A stretch of DNA of 64,000 nucleotides from an uncultured Mediterraneibacter sp. (GTDB taxonomy: Bacteria; Bacillota; Clostridia; Lachnospirales; Lachnospiraceae), in the NCBI GenBank assembly GCA_944381935.1, contig CALWMN010000008.1, positions 1 through 64,000 on the forward strand. The letters run 5' to 3'. The translations under genes were made by a program, and so were the position numbers. Shown here piece by piece: positions 8,758-13,594 of the stretch. The notes beneath the pieces are model-generated. The model was not told the DNA's origin, ran no database searches, and saw only the letters and a list, made by a program, of their open reading frames with translations. Each line of letters starts with the position of its first letter. Position 1 is the first letter of the stretch.

Positions 8758-9732
8758 ATGAGTATAAAAGGACTCGACGTCAGTAAATTCCAGGGGAACG
8801 TAGACTGGGAACGGGTGAAGGCGGCCGGCTATCAGTTCGCAATGCTGCGCGCCGGTTATGGCTTTGGCACTATTGACGAACAATTCCGGCGAAATGCCTC
8901 CGAGTGCAACCGTATCGGACTGCCCATCGGCGCATACTGGTTCTGTTACGCCACCAGTTCCGGGACAGCTGTACAGGAAGCCGATGGCTGCCTGAAAGTG
9001 ATTGCAGACTATAAGCTGGAATATCCGGTATGCTATGATATTGAACAGGCTACCATCGACTACGCTTCCGGTCAGGGAGTCACGATCACCCCCACCCTTG
9101 CAAAACAGCTCGTTAAAAGCTTCTGCAACAGGGTCGAGGAGAAGGGCTACTTTGCCATGTTCTACAGCAACAAAAACTTTTTGCAGCAATACCTGGGCAC
9201 CGATCTTGCGAAGCGCTACTCTCTCTGGTACGCCCGCTACACAGACACATTTGATGGGACGGACTGCAGCATATGGCAGTACACAAGTCAGGGAAGCGTA
9301 CCGGGTATCAGCGGAAACGTGGATCTGGATTTAAGCTATGTGGACTTCCCATCCGTCATCCGAAAGGCTGGGCTGAATCATCTGTCCGGCACTTCGCCTT
9401 CACCTGCCCCGTCGCCCTCACCTGCTGACGAATATATCACCTATGTCATCCAGCCTGGCGACACCTTAAGCGGGATTGCAGTGCGCTACGGAACCACCGT
9501 CTCTGAGCTCACCCGCATAAACGGCATCTCCAACCCAGATCGTATCTACGCCGGAAATACGCTCAAAGTGCCGGAGAGCGGTTCCCCTTCCAAAACCTAT
9601 ACGATTAAGTCCGGTGATACGTTAAGTGAGATCGCACAAAGATTCGGAACCACTGTCAGCGCACTGGCGAAACTAAATGGTATCTCCAATCCGGACCGGA
9701 TCTATGCCGGAACAACACTCAGGCTTCCATGA
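8758..9732 (+). CDS. GH25 lysozyme with two LysM domains
   Basis: A 324-residue peptidoglycan hydrolase. Residues 1-205 are a glycoside hydrolase family 25 (Lyc/Cpl-1 type) domain: GLDVSKFQGNVDW with Asp7, and YDIEQ with Asp94 and Glu96 as the expected catalytic acids; the WQYTSQGSVPGISGNVDLD end is also typical. A Pro/Ser linker (PSPAPSPSP) leads to two LysM repeats (YVIQPGDTLSGIAVRYG and YTIKSGDTLSEIAQRFG) that bind peptidoglycan. There is no signal peptide, as in phage endolysins, so release may need lysis or another route. GAAAGGATG lies upstream of the ATG. No other phage genes are near. Confidence 0.95.
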   Translation: MSIKGLDVSKFQGNVDWERVKAAGYQFAMLRAGYGFGTIDEQFRRNASECNRIGLPIGAYWFCYATSSGTAVQEADGCLKVIADYKLEYPVCYDIEQATIDYASGQGVTITPTLAKQLVKSFCNRVEEKGYFAMFYSNKNFLQQYLGTDLAKRYSLWYARYTDTFDGTDCSIWQYTSQGSVPGISGNVDLDLSYVDFPSVIRKAGLNHLSGTSPSPAPSPSPADEYITYVIQPGDTLSGIAVRYGTTVSELTRINGISNPDRIYAGNTLKVPESGSPSKTYTIKSGDTLSEIAQRFGTTVSALAKLNGISNPDRIYAGTTLRLP

Positions 9733-9802: not shown

Positions 9803-9845
9803 TTTAGACTTTAAACATACTTTGGACACATTTTCCGATTATACT
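9803..9845 (+). promoter_or_regulatory. promoter of sRNA copy A with 11-bp direct repeats
   Basis: Three hexamers at exact 11-bp steps, TTTAGA (9803-9808), AACATA (9814-9819) and GACACA (9825-9830), end 9 nt before a TATACT -10 box (9840-9845). No -35 box stands at the usual distance. The same arrangement, with identical spacing, precedes copies B and C. Such repeats are how OmpR/PhoB-family response regulators bind and activate promoters. Confidence 0.6.
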
Positions 9846-9851
9846 AAAACA

Positions 9852-9993
9852 CAGATAGTTGATAACACAACTATCTCCCCCCTCATAAAGTAGAGACATC
9901 TTGGGGAAACCCAAGGTGTCGCACTTTACTCTCATTCCTTTAGATAACTATAACAACACGGAACCCGTTAACCCTTGCGGTTAGCGGGTTTTC
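9852..9993 (+). ncRNA. structured small RNA, paralogue A
   Basis: A predicted 142-nt transcript not matching an RNA family I can name. Parts in order: hairpin GATAGTTG/CAACTATC (9854-9875); exposed TCCCCCCTCAT; a second stem GACATCTTGGG/CCCAAGGTGTC with GAAA tetraloop (9895-9920) enclosed by AAAG/CTTT; single-stranded ACTCTCATTCC; and a terminator AACCCGTTAACC/GGTTAGCGGGTT followed by TTTC. The second stem differs in sequence from copies B and C but keeps pairing, a covariation-like sign that the RNA fold matters. The 3' half is almost identical to copy C. The C-rich loop could bind Shine-Dalgarno sequences; this is inference. Confidence 0.75.
9962..9993 (+). terminator. terminator of sRNA copy A
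   Basis: AACCCGTTAACC (9962-9973) pairs with GGTTAGCGGGTT (9979-9990) with one U-G pair, followed by TTC. Confidence 0.8.
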
Positions 9994-10178
9994 GCCATTT
10001 ACGGCTCTTAGCTTTAAGCATTTCGGACACTTTTGGTGTATCTCCAGATAACTTTTTTTGCATAAAAAGTAAAATTTTTTAGTTTTTTAAAACCTTTTCC
10101 ATTTTCAGCCTGTCTTAGTCGTGCAGGGAGGCAAACAGCCAATCATAAAACATTTTTATGCACATGAGGAGGTACAAT

Positions 10179-10811
10179 ATGAACACACAGGAACTTTTAA
10201 ACTACTTATCTGAGAAAAAACGAATCACAGCACCCGTTGCAATTGCGCAGGATAACCTGAACAAAGCAAACCAGCGTCTTGAAAAAGCCAAAGGGAAATG
10301 GAAAATAGGAATTATCATAGTAATCGCTCTTCTGGCGCTTTTTGTTTTCGGGCTTTTCACGGGAGATACCGCTCTATTCTATTTTAATGAAAATGGAACG
10401 TTTCAGGCAGGCGGCATTGGCGGCACACTTCTTTTTGGCGCTCTCCTGGCGCTGTTGCTCTACATCAAACAGACCCGTTATGTAAAGCCGGCAGAACGGG
10501 AATCAGAAGCAGCGGCAGCCGCCCTTCAGAAAGCGCGGAACAATCCAGAATATCAAAACGGAGCCAGAGATTTTCCTGCAAAGTTTTATAATTACTATGA
10601 CATTTACCGTCTGTGGAATTTTGTCAATGAGGGCAGAGCCATAACTTTAAGGGAAGCTTATAATCTGTTGGAAACACATCAGTTCCAGGCTGACCAGATG
10701 GCAATACAGGAGGATATCAGGCGCCTTCAGAGGCAAATCGCAGCTACGTCAAAAGTAAATGCCGCGGCCTCTGTAGTAACGGCATATAATACATCCCGGA
10801 TGAGAAAATAG
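10179..10811 (+). CDS. hypothetical membrane protein with coiled-coil flanks
   Basis: A 210-residue protein I do not recognise. The start at 10179 follows GAGGAGGTACAAT; an ATG at 10158 is in frame but lies before the ribosome site. A charged helical region (about residues 20-42) precedes two hydrophobic segments (near 45-63 and 80-97) joined by a short loop, and the remaining 110 residues are soluble and helical (PAERESEAAAAALQKA and DIRRLQRQIAA look like coiled coil). It sits between sRNA copy A and a lipoprotein gene and ends with its own terminator. Function unknown. Confidence 0.75.
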   Translation: MNTQELLNYLSEKKRITAPVAIAQDNLNKANQRLEKAKGKWKIGIIIVIALLALFVFGLFTGDTALFYFNENGTFQAGGIGGTLLFGALLALLLYIKQTRYVKPAERESEAAAAALQKARNNPEYQNGARDFPAKFYNYYDIYRLWNFVNEGRAITLREAYNLLETHQFQADQMAIQEDIRRLQRQIAATSKVNAAASVVTAYNTSRMRK

Positions 10812-10822
10812 ATGTCGGATAA

Positions 10823-10846
10823 AACCCGCCCTGCAGGCGGGTTTTT
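10823..10846 (+). terminator. intrinsic terminator after the membrane protein gene
   Basis: AACCCGCC and GGCGGGTT pair around CTGCA and run into TTTTTGC, 12 nt after the stop codon. Confidence 0.85.
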
Positions 10847-10960
10847 GCATGTCTGGCCGAAGATGCTTTAAATTTGGTTAAAATATTCGCCATTATACCT
10901 TATGTATGGTAAAATAACTAATATCGCACAGTTGTGTGCAGACAAAGGGGGTTATAACCT

Positions 10961-11737
10961 ATGAAAAAACATTTCGCACTGATGCTTGCTCTCCTGATGG
11001 CGGTTTCCTTCACAGCCTGCAGTGCAGGAGGTACGCAGAGTGAACCTGCCGCATCCCAGGACGGTGCCTCGGAAGCAGAGGATACGGCAGAAAAGACAAC
11101 AACAGAGGCGGAGGCTCCGGAAACGGAGTCTGTATCCGATGCGGATCTTTCATCAGCCATTGACGCCAGTACGACAACCGATACGGATGCAGTTCCACTG
11201 GGACAATGGGCGAAAACAGCAAGATATGCAACCGAGGACGAGACCTACCACACCATTTATGTGCGCATCACAAAAGTCACAACGGCAACGGACGATGCAG
11301 ATTATGTCCAGTCCGCGATTGATCTTCACAATGAGAACAGCTCGGAGTTCAGCAAGATAGATACCTCATCCCTGGAGCTCCCGGATGATGTGGAATTATG
11401 TGTTGTGGATTATGAGGTATCCATCCCGGAAGAATTTCCCGCTCCTGACTATGGGCTTACAGAGCCGACCATATCGTTTTCCCAGAGCAATATCGGCGGC
11501 GGGGGAATCCCGTCTGCTGACGGAACCAGCACCTATATCGGACTTGGGTCCAACACTGAAGATCTCACAACAAAAGCAGAAGCCTCATACTATCCCGGAA
11601 ACACCTACTCTTTCAGCAGCCTTTTTACAATGGTAAAAGGCTATGGGGACTATGTATTTGAGTTTACATCTTATCCTGACGGCACCCAGGAGACTTCCGC
11701 TGATGTTATGTATTACGCTTATTTTGGAAACAAATAA
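10961..11737 (+). CDS. putative lipoprotein of unknown function
   Basis: A 258-residue exported lipoprotein. The signal peptide MKKHFALMLALLMAVSFTAC ends in a lipobox (FTAC). A low-complexity Ala/Glu/Thr linker of about 55 residues follows, then a mostly beta-type domain of about 180 residues with Gly-rich IGGGGIP. I do not recognise the domain. AAAGGGGG lies 11 nt before the ATG. It lies directly upstream of sRNA copies B and C, and the sibling sRNA copy A is 1 kb upstream, so the four may share a regulatory theme, but nothing in the sequence proves this. Confidence 0.75.
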   Translation: MKKHFALMLALLMAVSFTACSAGGTQSEPAASQDGASEAEDTAEKTTTEAEAPETESVSDADLSSAIDASTTTDTDAVPLGQWAKTARYATEDETYHTIYVRITKVTTATDDADYVQSAIDLHNENSSEFSKIDTSSLELPDDVELCVVDYEVSIPEEFPAPDYGLTEPTISFSQSNIGGGGIPSADGTSTYIGLGSNTEDLTTKAEASYYPGNTYSFSSLFTMVKGYGDYVFEFTSYPDGTQETSADVMYYAYFGNK

Positions 11738-11787
11738 AATATTCCGTTCTACTTTCTTAACACCTAATTAAGAAAGTTTCTGATTCT

Positions 11788-11830
11788 TTTAGAGTTTCCT
11801 CATATTTCTGTCACAATCTACCTTTATACT
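11788..11830 (+). promoter_or_regulatory. promoter of sRNA copy B with 11-bp direct repeats
   Basis: TTTAGA (11788-11793), CTCATA (11799-11804) and GTCACA (11810-11815) are spaced by exactly 11 bp, then 9 nt, then TATACT (11825-11830). Similarity to copy C extends about 17 nt further upstream (AGAAA-TTTCTG-TTC), so the promoters were duplicated with the RNAs. Confidence 0.65.
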
Positions 11831-11836
11831 ATATAT

Positions 11837-11977
11837 CAGATAGTTGATAGACAACTATCTTCCCCCTCATAAAGCAAGACATCCGAATTGATCACGGATG
11901 TCGCACTTTACTCTCATTCCTTTTAGATAACCATAAAAACGTGAGAACCCGCTGGCCGTAAGGTTGGCGGGTTTTCT
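11837..11977 (+). ncRNA. structured small RNA, paralogue B
   Basis: A predicted 141-nt transcript. Hairpin GATAGTTG/CAACTATC with ATAGA loop (11839-11859); exposed TTCCCCCTCAT; second stem GACATCCG/CGGATGTC (11878-11902) within AAAG/CTTT; single-stranded ACTCTCATTCC; then a terminator whose stem AACCCGCTGGCC/GGTTGGCGGGTT differs from copies A and C but still pairs using G-U pairs. The exposed C-rich stretch is exactly complementary over 9 nt to the ribosome site region of the MFS gene at 35607. No convincing short reading frame with a ribosome site is present. Confidence 0.75.
11946..11977 (+). terminator. terminator of sRNA copy B
   Basis: AACCCGCTGGCC pairs with GGTTGGCGGGTT around GTAA, followed by TTCTCT. 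Confidence 0.8.
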
Positions 11978-12047
11978 CTGTCCCGGCAGTTCTTTTCCTC
12001 TGCCGTAATTATACAGTTAATGTGAAATTTAGAAATTTTCTGCTTCT

Positions 12048-12090
12048 TTTATAATTCTCTCATATTTTTGTCACATTTCCTGTCTATACT
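12048..12090 (+). promoter_or_regulatory. promoter of sRNA copy C with 11-bp direct repeats
   Basis: TTTATA (12048-12053), CTCATA (12059-12064) and GTCACA (12070-12075) at 11-bp steps, 9 nt, then TATACT (12085-12090). Spacing is identical to copies A and B. Confidence 0.65.
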
Positions 12091-12096
12091 TATAGT

Positions 12097-12240
12097 CAGA
12101 TAGTTGATAGACAACAACTATCTTCCCCCCTCATAAAGCAAAGACATCCGAATTGATCGCGGATGTCGCACTTTACTCTCATTCCTTTAGATAACTATAA
12201 CAACACGGAACCCGTTAGCCCTTGTGGTTAGCGGGTTTTC
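12097..12240 (+). ncRNA. structured small RNA, paralogue C
   Basis: A predicted 144-nt transcript close to copy B in its 5' half and copy A in its 3' half. Parts: 5' hairpin GATAGTTG/CAACTATC, here with a larger loop because of an extra CAA; exposed TTCCCCCCTCAT; stem GACATCCG/CGGATGTC; ACTCTCATTCC; and terminator AACCCGTTAGCC/GGTTAGCGGGTT followed by TTC. The mosaic similarity suggests duplication plus recombination among copies. Copy C follows copy B with only 119 nt between its start and the end of B. Confidence 0.75.
12209..12240 (+). terminator. terminator of sRNA copy C
   Basis: AACCCGTTAGCC and GGTTAGCGGGTT pair around CTTGT and run into TTC. Confidence 0.8.
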
Positions 12241-12315
12241 GCCGCTTATGGCTCTTAGCCGCGGTTATGGCGGACACCTTTCGGATCCCCCGCGGGCACC
12301 TTGCAATTGCGAAAG

Positions 12316-12724: not shown

Positions 12725-13594
12725 ATGCAAAAACTTTACTACGAAACGTTCCGCGAAATCAGCAGCCTGGGCATCCATCTGGCATACCGGACCACCCCCG
12801 GCGGATACCGTCCCCTGCACTGGCATGATGAGCTGGAAATCCTGTTTCCGCTCAACGGGGACGCCGATATTTTTGTGGAGGGGCACCGGCAGCATCTCCC
12901 CCAGCAGAGCCTGATGGTCATTGATTCCAGGCAGGTGCACAGCACCTATGCCAAGGCGGATACCTATATGTTTGTCTGCATCCATATCTCCAAAAGGGGG
13001 ATGCAGGAATATCTTCCCGACGTGGAGCTGTATCAGGTCCGGTGTATGCCCGAAGAGATCACAGAGGAGCAGCGCCCGGCTTACGAGGATATCTGCCATA
13101 TGCTGGAAAACCTCACCCGCCTGTATGTGGATGAGCCGGTTACATTTCTAATGGAATCAGAAGGGATCATCCTGCAGATCTTTTCCCGCCTGATCCGTTT
13201 CTTTTCCACGAACACGGCGCCTCAGTCATCTAACAAAGATATGATGACTATGGAACGTCTGCGTGAGGTAATCACCTATGTGGAAAAACATTTCCAGGAG
13301 CCTGTCACTCTGCAGGATATGGCAGACCTCCTCGGCATCGGCAAGGAATACTTCTGCCGTTTTTTCAAGAAGAATATGGGGATGTCCTTTTTACAGTATG
13401 TAAACGAAGTACGCATAACCCATATTTATCAGGATCTGATCCATACGGATACGCCCGTTTATGAATTGATGGAAGAAAACGGCTTTACCAATCAGAAACT
13501 GTTCAATAAAACCTTTCGCACGCTCTATGGCTGTACTCCATCCGCTGTCCGAAAAAACGGAGGCGTCCCTGAAACCACAGAAAGTTCTTCCTGA
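12725..13594 (+). CDS. AraC family transcriptional regulator
   Basis: A 289-residue regulator. The start at 12725 follows CAGGAGTACAAT; the longer frame to 12659 lies in the promoter. The N-terminal half is a cupin-type sensing domain (HWHDELEILFPLNGDADIFV, VIDSRQVHS), and the C-terminal 100 residues hold two helix-turn-helix units (VTLQDMADLLGIGKEYFCRFFKKNMG and PVYELMEENGFTNQKLFNKTFRTLYGCTP). Such proteins usually sense a sugar or small metabolite and activate adjacent genes. Here only the divergent 45-codon gene and the sRNAs are adjacent, so the target is unclear. Confidence 0.92.
   Translation: MQKLYYETFREISSLGIHLAYRTTPGGYRPLHWHDELEILFPLNGDADIFVEGHRQHLPQQSLMVIDSRQVHSTYAKADTYMFVCIHISKRGMQEYLPDVELYQVRCMPEEITEEQRPAYEDICHMLENLTRLYVDEPVTFLMESEGIILQIFSRLIRFFSTNTAPQSSNKDMMTMERLREVITYVEKHFQEPVTLQDMADLLGIGKEYFCRFFKKNMGMSFLQYVNEVRITHIYQDLIHTDTPVYELMEENGFTNQKLFNKTFRTLYGCTPSAVRKNGGVPETTESSS

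Follow-up and report, generated by a model that had tools for sequence, protein, structure and literature searches.

A multicopy family of C-rich small RNAs in Lachnospiraceae with a promoter box in common with htrA

In Gram-negative bacteria, the envelope stress regulators Cpx and sigma-E control HtrA-type proteases and work with small RNAs (sRNAs). In Streptococcus, CiaR drives the csRNAs and htrA through a direct repeat with an 11-bp period, located about 10 nt before the -10 element, and the csRNAs expose anti-Shine-Dalgarno and CAU sequences (PMC3091779, PMC12826053; also PMC8186281). In Listeria monocytogenes, expression of the LhrC copies requires LisRK and rises under envelope stress, and the RNAs pair via UCCC stretches at the Shine-Dalgarno site; according to the same 2014 paper, no LisR binding consensus was known (PMC4132741). 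LisRK is also tied to htrA, and CssRS of Bacillus is an envelope or secretion stress regulator that drives HtrA-type proteases (PMC12826053). Here we describe three RNA genes of a comparable plan in a 64,000-nucleotide stretch of DNA, the window (contig CALWMN010000008.1 of assembly GCA_944381935.1), from an uncultured Mediterraneibacter sp. of the Lachnospiraceae. Because their pattern matches both CiaR/csRNA and LisR/LhrC, we take them to be candidate envelope-stress sRNAs that would repress mRNAs at their start regions. The sequence evidence makes it likely that in these bacteria a two-component system controls HtrA and FtsH proteases together with multicopy C-rich antisense sRNAs under envelope stress.

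A sequence-only reading of the window had claimed three paralogous structured RNA genes of about 140 nt. All three are present on the + strand, at 9853-9995 (copy A), 11838-11980 (copy B), and 12098-12243 (copy C), with 5′ ends within 1 nt of those claimed; the 5′ end of copy A is placed from the -10 element and family conservation and its 3′ end from the 3′ hairpin. Promoter, body, and 3′ hairpin are common to the copies, and each copy is one unit. The parts named in that reading were all found: the hairpin GATAGTTG/CAACTATC, the C-rich TCCCCCTCAT, a second hairpin, ACTCTCATTCC, and the 3′ hairpin. All three copies fold in the same order: the 5′ hairpin is followed by a C-rich stretch left unpaired and the second hairpin by ACTCTCATTCCTTTAGATAACTATAA, likewise unpaired, with a stable hairpin at the 3′ end. 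In copy A (+ strand), these are the near-invariant helix 1 (9854-9875; GATAGTTG/CAACTATC), exposed region 1 (9876-9886; TCCCCCCTCAT), helix 2 (9887-9927), where AAAG...CTTT closes a covarying inner stem, exposed region 2 (9928-9957; ACTCTCATTCCTTTAGATAACTATAA and the letters that follow), and a terminator-like hairpin (9960-9993). Folding z-scores of the three copies are -8.1, -5.4, and -5.2 against dinucleotide shuffles, with 0/200 shuffles reaching the same level for any copy. Helix 2 and the 3′ hairpin vary in sequence among the copies while pairing is kept, as expected from the earlier claim that the fold is under selection.

That each copy has its own terminator and promoter, also claimed, stood in part. 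The 3′ hairpins are strong, but their T run is short (TTTTC), and a terminator consensus scan flags none of the three on the + strand. Because of their place, folding, and conservation, we read them as probable terminators; in all 69 full-length relatives tested, the 3′ tail has a folding energy of -8 kcal/mol or lower. A promoter is present in each copy, but the conserved element is not a sigma-70 -35 sequence: it is a direct repeat, ACAYA-N6-ACAYA (11-bp spacing), 9 nt ahead of the -10 sequence TATAMT, together referred to here as the box. The promoter of copy A (9815-9845, + strand) is an exact match, with the repeat ACATACTTTGGACACA at 9815-9830, 9 nt, and TATACT at 9840-9845. The -10 sequence is likewise TATACT in copy C (12060-12090, + strand; TCATATTTTTGTCACA, 2 mismatches) and in copy B, whose box is diverged (11800-11830, + strand; TCATATTTCTGTCACA, 3 mismatches). 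A sigma-70 consensus scan gave 6 promoters versus 5.0 in shuffles, which is no excess; one of them, at 12068-12096, covers part of copy C's box.

In Rfam 15 at gathering score, the window contains a tRNA at 1-72 only, and no family matches the RNA genes; up to an E value of 10, these genes give chance-level matches only, and at gathering score 17 of the retrieved loci give tRNA and FMN only. A BLAST search of the own genome with copy C returns the three places in the window and no other match at a significant E value. Of 58 same-genus genomes searched with BLAST, 56 contain the RNA, and a pattern scan of named genomes found 46 stretches, with carriers including Mediterraneibacter species, [Ruminococcus] torques ATCC 27756, Faecalicatena contorta, F. 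orotica, Muricomes intestini, and Schaedlerella arabinosiphila. We built a covariance model from 42 sequences, selected from 112 nhmmer hits by dropping 5′-truncated, cut-off, and near-duplicate ones (the coordinates of L037 were set by hand). A search with this model found relatives in 54 of 396 Lachnospiraceae genomes, representing 44 of 280 genera, with 1 to 4 matches each; at the class level, 1 of 393 genomes matches, the window genome itself. The plasmid search did not find the family, and a phage collection gave two matches, both in unannotated faecal records. Family sequence in a viral contig (L204:10800-10817) and in the unannotated faecal phage record MT839987.1:4386-4563 may be host DNA or a prophage-borne copy. 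Literature searches for Lachnospiraceae sRNAs, for htrA with two-component systems, and for strings of both exposed segments returned no description of the RNA. Thousands of gut structured RNAs were predicted in PMC8040213; its main text does not contain the words Lachnospiraceae or sRNA, and its supplementary tables, which are outside this comparison, may include the family. The Rfam and covariance-model searches, both proposed in the sequence-only reading, returned no known Rfam element and relatives in Lachnospiraceae. With its wide spread, the compensatory changes in helix 2, and its exposed C-rich segments, this is apparently an undescribed multicopy sRNA family, as that reading had suggested, and one widespread in Lachnospiraceae.

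Structural conservation was examined in a MAFFT alignment of the 42 sequences. Double changes occur in 6 of 19 pairs, all within the 7-pair inner stem of helix 2. The covariation score is 0.148 versus 0.091 (standard deviation [SD], 0.006) in shuffles, with 0/500 shuffles as high, and sliding the partner strand makes pairing fall from 98.7% to 33-49%. When 89 members from 47 of the 54 genomes were aligned to the model, in an alignment that leans to that model, 96.8% of cells were paired and double changes appeared in 16 of 19 pairs. The homologues with compensatory changes that had been proposed as a check were sought, and helix 2 covaries. Helix 1 is nearly invariant (7 of 8 pairs lack any variation in the 42 sequences), and so are both exposed segments among full-length members. 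These C/U-rich segments, UCCCCCCUCAU and ACUCUCAUUCCUUUA, flank the second hairpin, both contain CUCAU, and are predicted to be unpaired at 0.7 or more in 64 of 67 members (region 1) and 65 of 69 members (region 2). A pairing of the helix 1 5′ arm with the conserved tail AUAACUAU was considered and dropped by eye; L151, whose 5′ arm is changed, keeps the tail.

The box accompanies the family. Of 71 full-length members, 70 carry it with at most 3 mismatches and 61 with at most 1; the 71st, L157, has 4 mismatches and holds both exposed segments, which makes it a diverged full-length member and not a short form. A reversed-pattern control never has fewer than 4 mismatches in the 70. Two members without region 2, L126:6365 and L145:4599, are outside the 70 and have 3 and 0 box mismatches, respectively. 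We searched 200 Lachnospiraceae genomes for the exact box and found 57 matches in 41 genomes, with 0 for the reversed control. By our reading, 53 of the 57 sit before small-RNA-like genes, 3 before htrA, and 1 before ftsH. Model matches of the window family follow 31 of the boxes and a short form follows 7; the other 15 (8 + 2 + 5) precede sRNA-like elements of other sequence, assigned from visible hairpins and terminators and not by a search model. The eight are a second RNA type with the same plan: a 5′ hairpin TATTAGC..GCTAATA, TTTCATAACTCAC, a second hairpin, CTCCCTCAAA, and a terminator. Seven of them (L223, L224, two copies in L227, L234, L277, and L279), aligned and folded, have 27 predicted pairs with double changes in 11, and the three loci scanned (L223, L224, and L227) have no Rfam match; the eighth, L211, is a looser relative by eye. 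L225 and L232 carry a further type (hairpin, CTTTTTCATACTCA, hairpin, and a run of C), and five single elements follow the exact box in L207, L209, L210, L214, and L229.

At lower stringency, the box does not stand out in the window genome: with 2 mismatches allowed, the repeat by itself gives 21 sites versus 31 in the control, with no enrichment, and box plus -10 at 3 mismatches gives 13 versus 10, also not enriched. The 13 include the three sRNA promoters, htrA, and L236, five sites in all; those inspected among the rest look like chance matches. The single 1-mismatch box of this genome lies on contig 11 (L236:1501-1640). Behind it comes a short element, TTTTTCATAAACTTTTTCCCCC, that contains a C-rich stretch and a hairpin and is flanked by an ECF transporter gene, which has an FMN riboswitch ahead of it, and by another open reading frame (ORF). 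This element is perhaps a fourth sRNA of the regulon, of another type.

Proteases with the same box would link the family to envelope stress. The exact box precedes htrA in L212, L213, and L278 and ftsH in L280. Pfam trypsin domains are found in all three HtrA proteins and PDZ domains in two (the L212 gene runs off the end of its locus); the NCBIfam Do/HtrA models match the L213 and L278 proteins below cut-off, and the FtsH match is above cut-off. In the ftsH promoter (L280:1392-1480), what we take to be a CIRCE-like inverted repeat (an HrcA site) lies just downstream of the exact box, and two stress inputs would then act on one protease gene. With L213 as the query, we collected the best htrA homologue per genus from 30 genera (HTRA INDEPENDENTLY), chosen regardless of the box. 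A box with at most 3 mismatches is found upstream of 19 of these 30 genes (2 at one mismatch, 10 at two, and 7 at three). The comparison set consisted of 663 regions upstream of stop-to-stop frames of at least 200 codons, covering about 1/5 of the window genome and including many frames that are not genes; one is copy A's own promoter, and of the other 662, none has the box at 3 mismatches or fewer and five reach 4. The best htrA gene of the window genome (contig 14), one of the 19, has a box at 2 mismatches just upstream.

A candidate regulator is found beside the RNA genes of relatives, where an OmpR-family response regulator, with receiver and winged-helix domains, recurs. Of 33 genomes with full-length members, 21 encode it 0.1 to 4.2 kb away from an RNA gene (21 of 34 including that of L157); these regulators are 78 to 100% identical to two queries that are themselves two of the 21, and 7 of the 54 genomes are outside this set. 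In 17 loci the regulator occurs with a large kinase of one family within 3.5 kb. VanR is the best model for the regulator, which scores below the NCBIfam VanR-ABDEGLN cut-off (282 bits for L152, versus 350). A close homologue (E value of at most 1e-100) occurs in 112 of 200 genomes, namely, in 29 of 29 with a model match versus 83 of 171 without one (Fisher P = 8e-9), and in 33 of the 41 exact-box genomes (P = 3e-4); regulator and box counts are taken as the same 200-genome draw, for which all listed handles agree and 68 matchless genomes are unlisted. The window genome has an 88% identical homologue on contig 13, followed by a frame that resembles the N-terminal part of the kinase and has no match in Pfam.

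We propose that each of the three segments encodes a member of a single family of trans-acting sRNAs of about 140 nt. A VanR-like OmpR-family regulator with a large sensor kinase would bind the 11-bp direct repeat directly ahead of the -10 of each gene and turn on the sRNA genes together with htrA, and sometimes ftsH, under envelope stress. Each RNA would consist of a 5′ hairpin, two exposed C/U-rich segments around a second hairpin, and a terminator hairpin. The exposed segments would pair with Shine-Dalgarno or start regions of mRNAs, probably those that encode exported or envelope proteins, and reduce translation of these mRNAs while misfolded protein is cleared by the proteases. The RNA genes are thus probably the RNA arm of a cell-envelope stress response, through the box common to the protease genes. 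Structure, conservation, the box and its presence before htrA and ftsH, the gene neighborhood, and regulator co-occurrence support this proposal at the level of sequence; transcription, binding by this regulator, and the inducing signal are its predictions. Its weakest part is the identity and sign of mRNA regulation.

Several results weigh against the proposal. An exposed stretch that could serve for csRNA-like anti-Shine-Dalgarno pairing, CCCCCCUCAU, is present, but pairing to 582 start regions of the own genome is not clearly above that of shuffled RNAs: at -18 kcal/mol, region 1 gives 12 versus 5.0 (SD, 4.1), and region 2 gives 12 versus 14.0. The pattern that yielded the 46 loci fixes region 1, whose invariance is therefore partly due to selection of the sequences, and further pair types, one of five covariation measures, show no excess over shuffles in the 42 sequences (209/500 as high). 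As for the box, 11 of the 30 htrA genes lack it at 3 mismatches or fewer (6 have four and 5 have more), and the reversed control reaches 3 mismatches in 3 of the 30 regions; two other htrA-like genes of the window genome are also without a box among its sites at 3 mismatches or fewer. The co-occurrence statistics ignore phylogeny, 8 of the 41 exact-box genomes lack a close regulator homologue, and the regulator gene of the window genome is not adjacent to the RNA genes. The regulator gene itself has no box of its own. One of 20 is preceded by a box, which belongs to the adjacent sRNA gene, and the other 19 have at least 5 mismatches; therefore, no autoregulation through the box is seen. The search for target sites in the own genome gave 44 complements of region 1 with at most 2 mismatches, versus 28 for the reversed control; three of the 44 are the sRNA genes themselves, and among 27 of the other 41 that were inspected, an open frame starts nearby in 12. 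Among these 12 are a putative tagaturonate-reductase-like and a putative ABC-permease-like gene.

The main rival to mRNA pairing is binding of a protein. The RNAs could be real and under control of the regulator yet act mainly by binding an RNA chaperone, a ribonuclease, or a translational regulator through the CUCAU segments and the 5′ hairpin. Helix 1 is kept in sequence and not in pairing alone, the near-invariance of the exposed segments goes beyond what loose anti-Shine-Dalgarno pairing needs, and the start-region pairing result would fit as well. However, the segments are C-rich and exposed like those of mRNA-pairing csRNAs, LhrC, and other UCCC sRNAs (PMC4132741, PMC3091779), and the other sRNA-like elements behind the same box differ in sequence, so we consider this explanation possible but doubtful. 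About equally doubtful is the idea that another regulator, for example, an OmpR-family paralogue, binds the box and that the neighboring two-component system is simply a frequent genomic neighbor. The window genome has 19 matches to the regulator, the second best 61% identical, and both the box genomes without a close homologue and the regulator gene without a box would fit such a paralogue. This idea must be set against the same regulator recurring near the RNA genes in 21 of 33 genomes and a close homologue in every one of the 29 genomes with the RNA.

Two explanations would deny the segments the status of independent sRNA genes. Cis-acting leaders or processed 3′ ends of neighboring mRNAs seem very unlikely: a lysozyme gene does lie ahead of copy A in the same direction, but 70 of 71 full-length members have their own box, the 3′ tail is stable in all those tested, and the neighbors differ from genome to genome. 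We give still less credence to a mobile or repetitive element without a cellular role, which is hard to reconcile with units of promoter, body, and 3′ hairpin, with helices that covary and exposed segments that hardly vary across members from 47 genomes, with a recurrent regulator neighbor, and with no plasmid match, two phage records, and only three copies in the genome. Such an element might explain three copies in 2.4 kb and copy numbers that vary among genomes. It could also fit the likeness of copies A and C, by eye, for some 45 nt beyond the 3′ hairpin (9995-10040 and 12243-12290), a likeness that copy B does not have and that points to duplication that is recent or wider than the gene. 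Copies A and C may have duplicated, or exchanged sequence, more recently.

The modular makeup of these RNAs is suggested by partial forms. Fourteen weak model matches (L158 and L161-L172, with two in L172) are short RNAs with helix 1 and CTCCCCCCTCATAA or a similar sequence, in which helix 1 and the first segment run straight into a terminator-like hairpin. The box is present with at most 3 mismatches in 13 of the 14, and the reversed pattern in 2. The string CTATCTCCCCCCTCATAA, with 1 mismatch allowed, occurs in 85 of the 396 family genomes, and a reversed-control match occurs in 4. In L123:15693-15785 and L135:3921-4013, the second segment, TCCCTCATTCCTTTAGATAACTATAA, stands alone after an unrelated hairpin, and the box is absent (8 and 9 mismatches, respectively). 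The second exposed segment may be a shared target-binding module under other control. Since each segment also occurs alone in weak model matches, the window RNA looks like a two-module RNA. We are evenly divided on a broader picture: a family-wide envelope-stress regulon of Lachnospiraceae, built independently of CiaR and LisR, with a single box driving HtrA, FtsH, and several unrelated sRNA families of a common plan. Promoter and plan would be conserved and the RNA bodies exchanged from genus to genus; the window RNA would be a two-module fusion of target-binding segments also found alone.

In the window, the RNA genes sit among a GH25 lysozyme gene with LysM domains, two ORFs that match nothing in Pfam above cut-off, and the gene of an AraC-family regulator. 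The lysozyme gene (8758-9732, + strand) is the upstream neighbor of copy A, and in 13 genomes, that of the window included, a protein of the same cluster is encoded no more than 3.5 kb from the sRNA genes. The AraC-family gene (12725-13594, + strand) is a positional neighbor. The tRNA gene at the window edge (1-72, - strand) was found by Rfam and missed by ARAGORN.

Little seems established about posttranscriptional control in Lachnospiraceae, a dominant gut family. If our proposal is true, it provides a ready-made regulon whose regulator, readable box, target proteases, and sRNAs could be tested in named carriers such as [Ruminococcus] torques ATCC 27756 and Faecalicatena contorta. It would also add to CiaR/csRNA and LisR/LhrC another independent example of a two-component system that is tied to htrA and has multicopy C-rich sRNAs, and the recurring pattern itself would then need explaining.

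How closely do these RNAs resemble the known ones? For CssRS and Cpx/sigma-E, RNAs and promoter elements unrelated to those of the window are expected. The sequence-only reading had likened the plan to csRNAs and LhrC, and the likeness is supported at the sequence level and extends to a regulator-type box common to htrA and a two-component system near the RNA genes. Like the csRNAs of the Streptococcus CiaRH regulon, the window RNAs are multicopy, combine hairpins with exposed C-rich segments, and have a direct-repeat box of the same geometry that is common to htrA. Within the box, only geometry agrees, however: it is ACAYA-N6-ACAYA-N9-TATAMT, whereas that of CiaR is TTTAAG-N5-TTTAAG. The window RNAs also differ in their extra covarying helix, two near-invariant exposed segments, and bacterial family, and the neighboring regulator is closest to VanR models, below cut-off, in a comparison that did not include CiaR itself. 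Targets of csRNAs are known, whereas those of the window RNAs are predicted. With LhrC1-5 of L. monocytogenes they have in common multiple copies and a C-rich, UCCC-type sequence; dependence on a two-component system and induction by envelope stress would carry over by analogy. The architecture is different: LhrC has its UCCC motif in two loops and a single-stranded stretch, whereas the window copies have UCCCCCC in a single-stranded stretch and not in loops. The window RNA has no Rfam match that would join it to csRNA or LhrC, and whether Rfam holds models of either was not checked. In our reading, the family is unrelated in sequence to csRNA and LhrC and is neither of them by its box or by Rfam match, yet we expect it to work like them.

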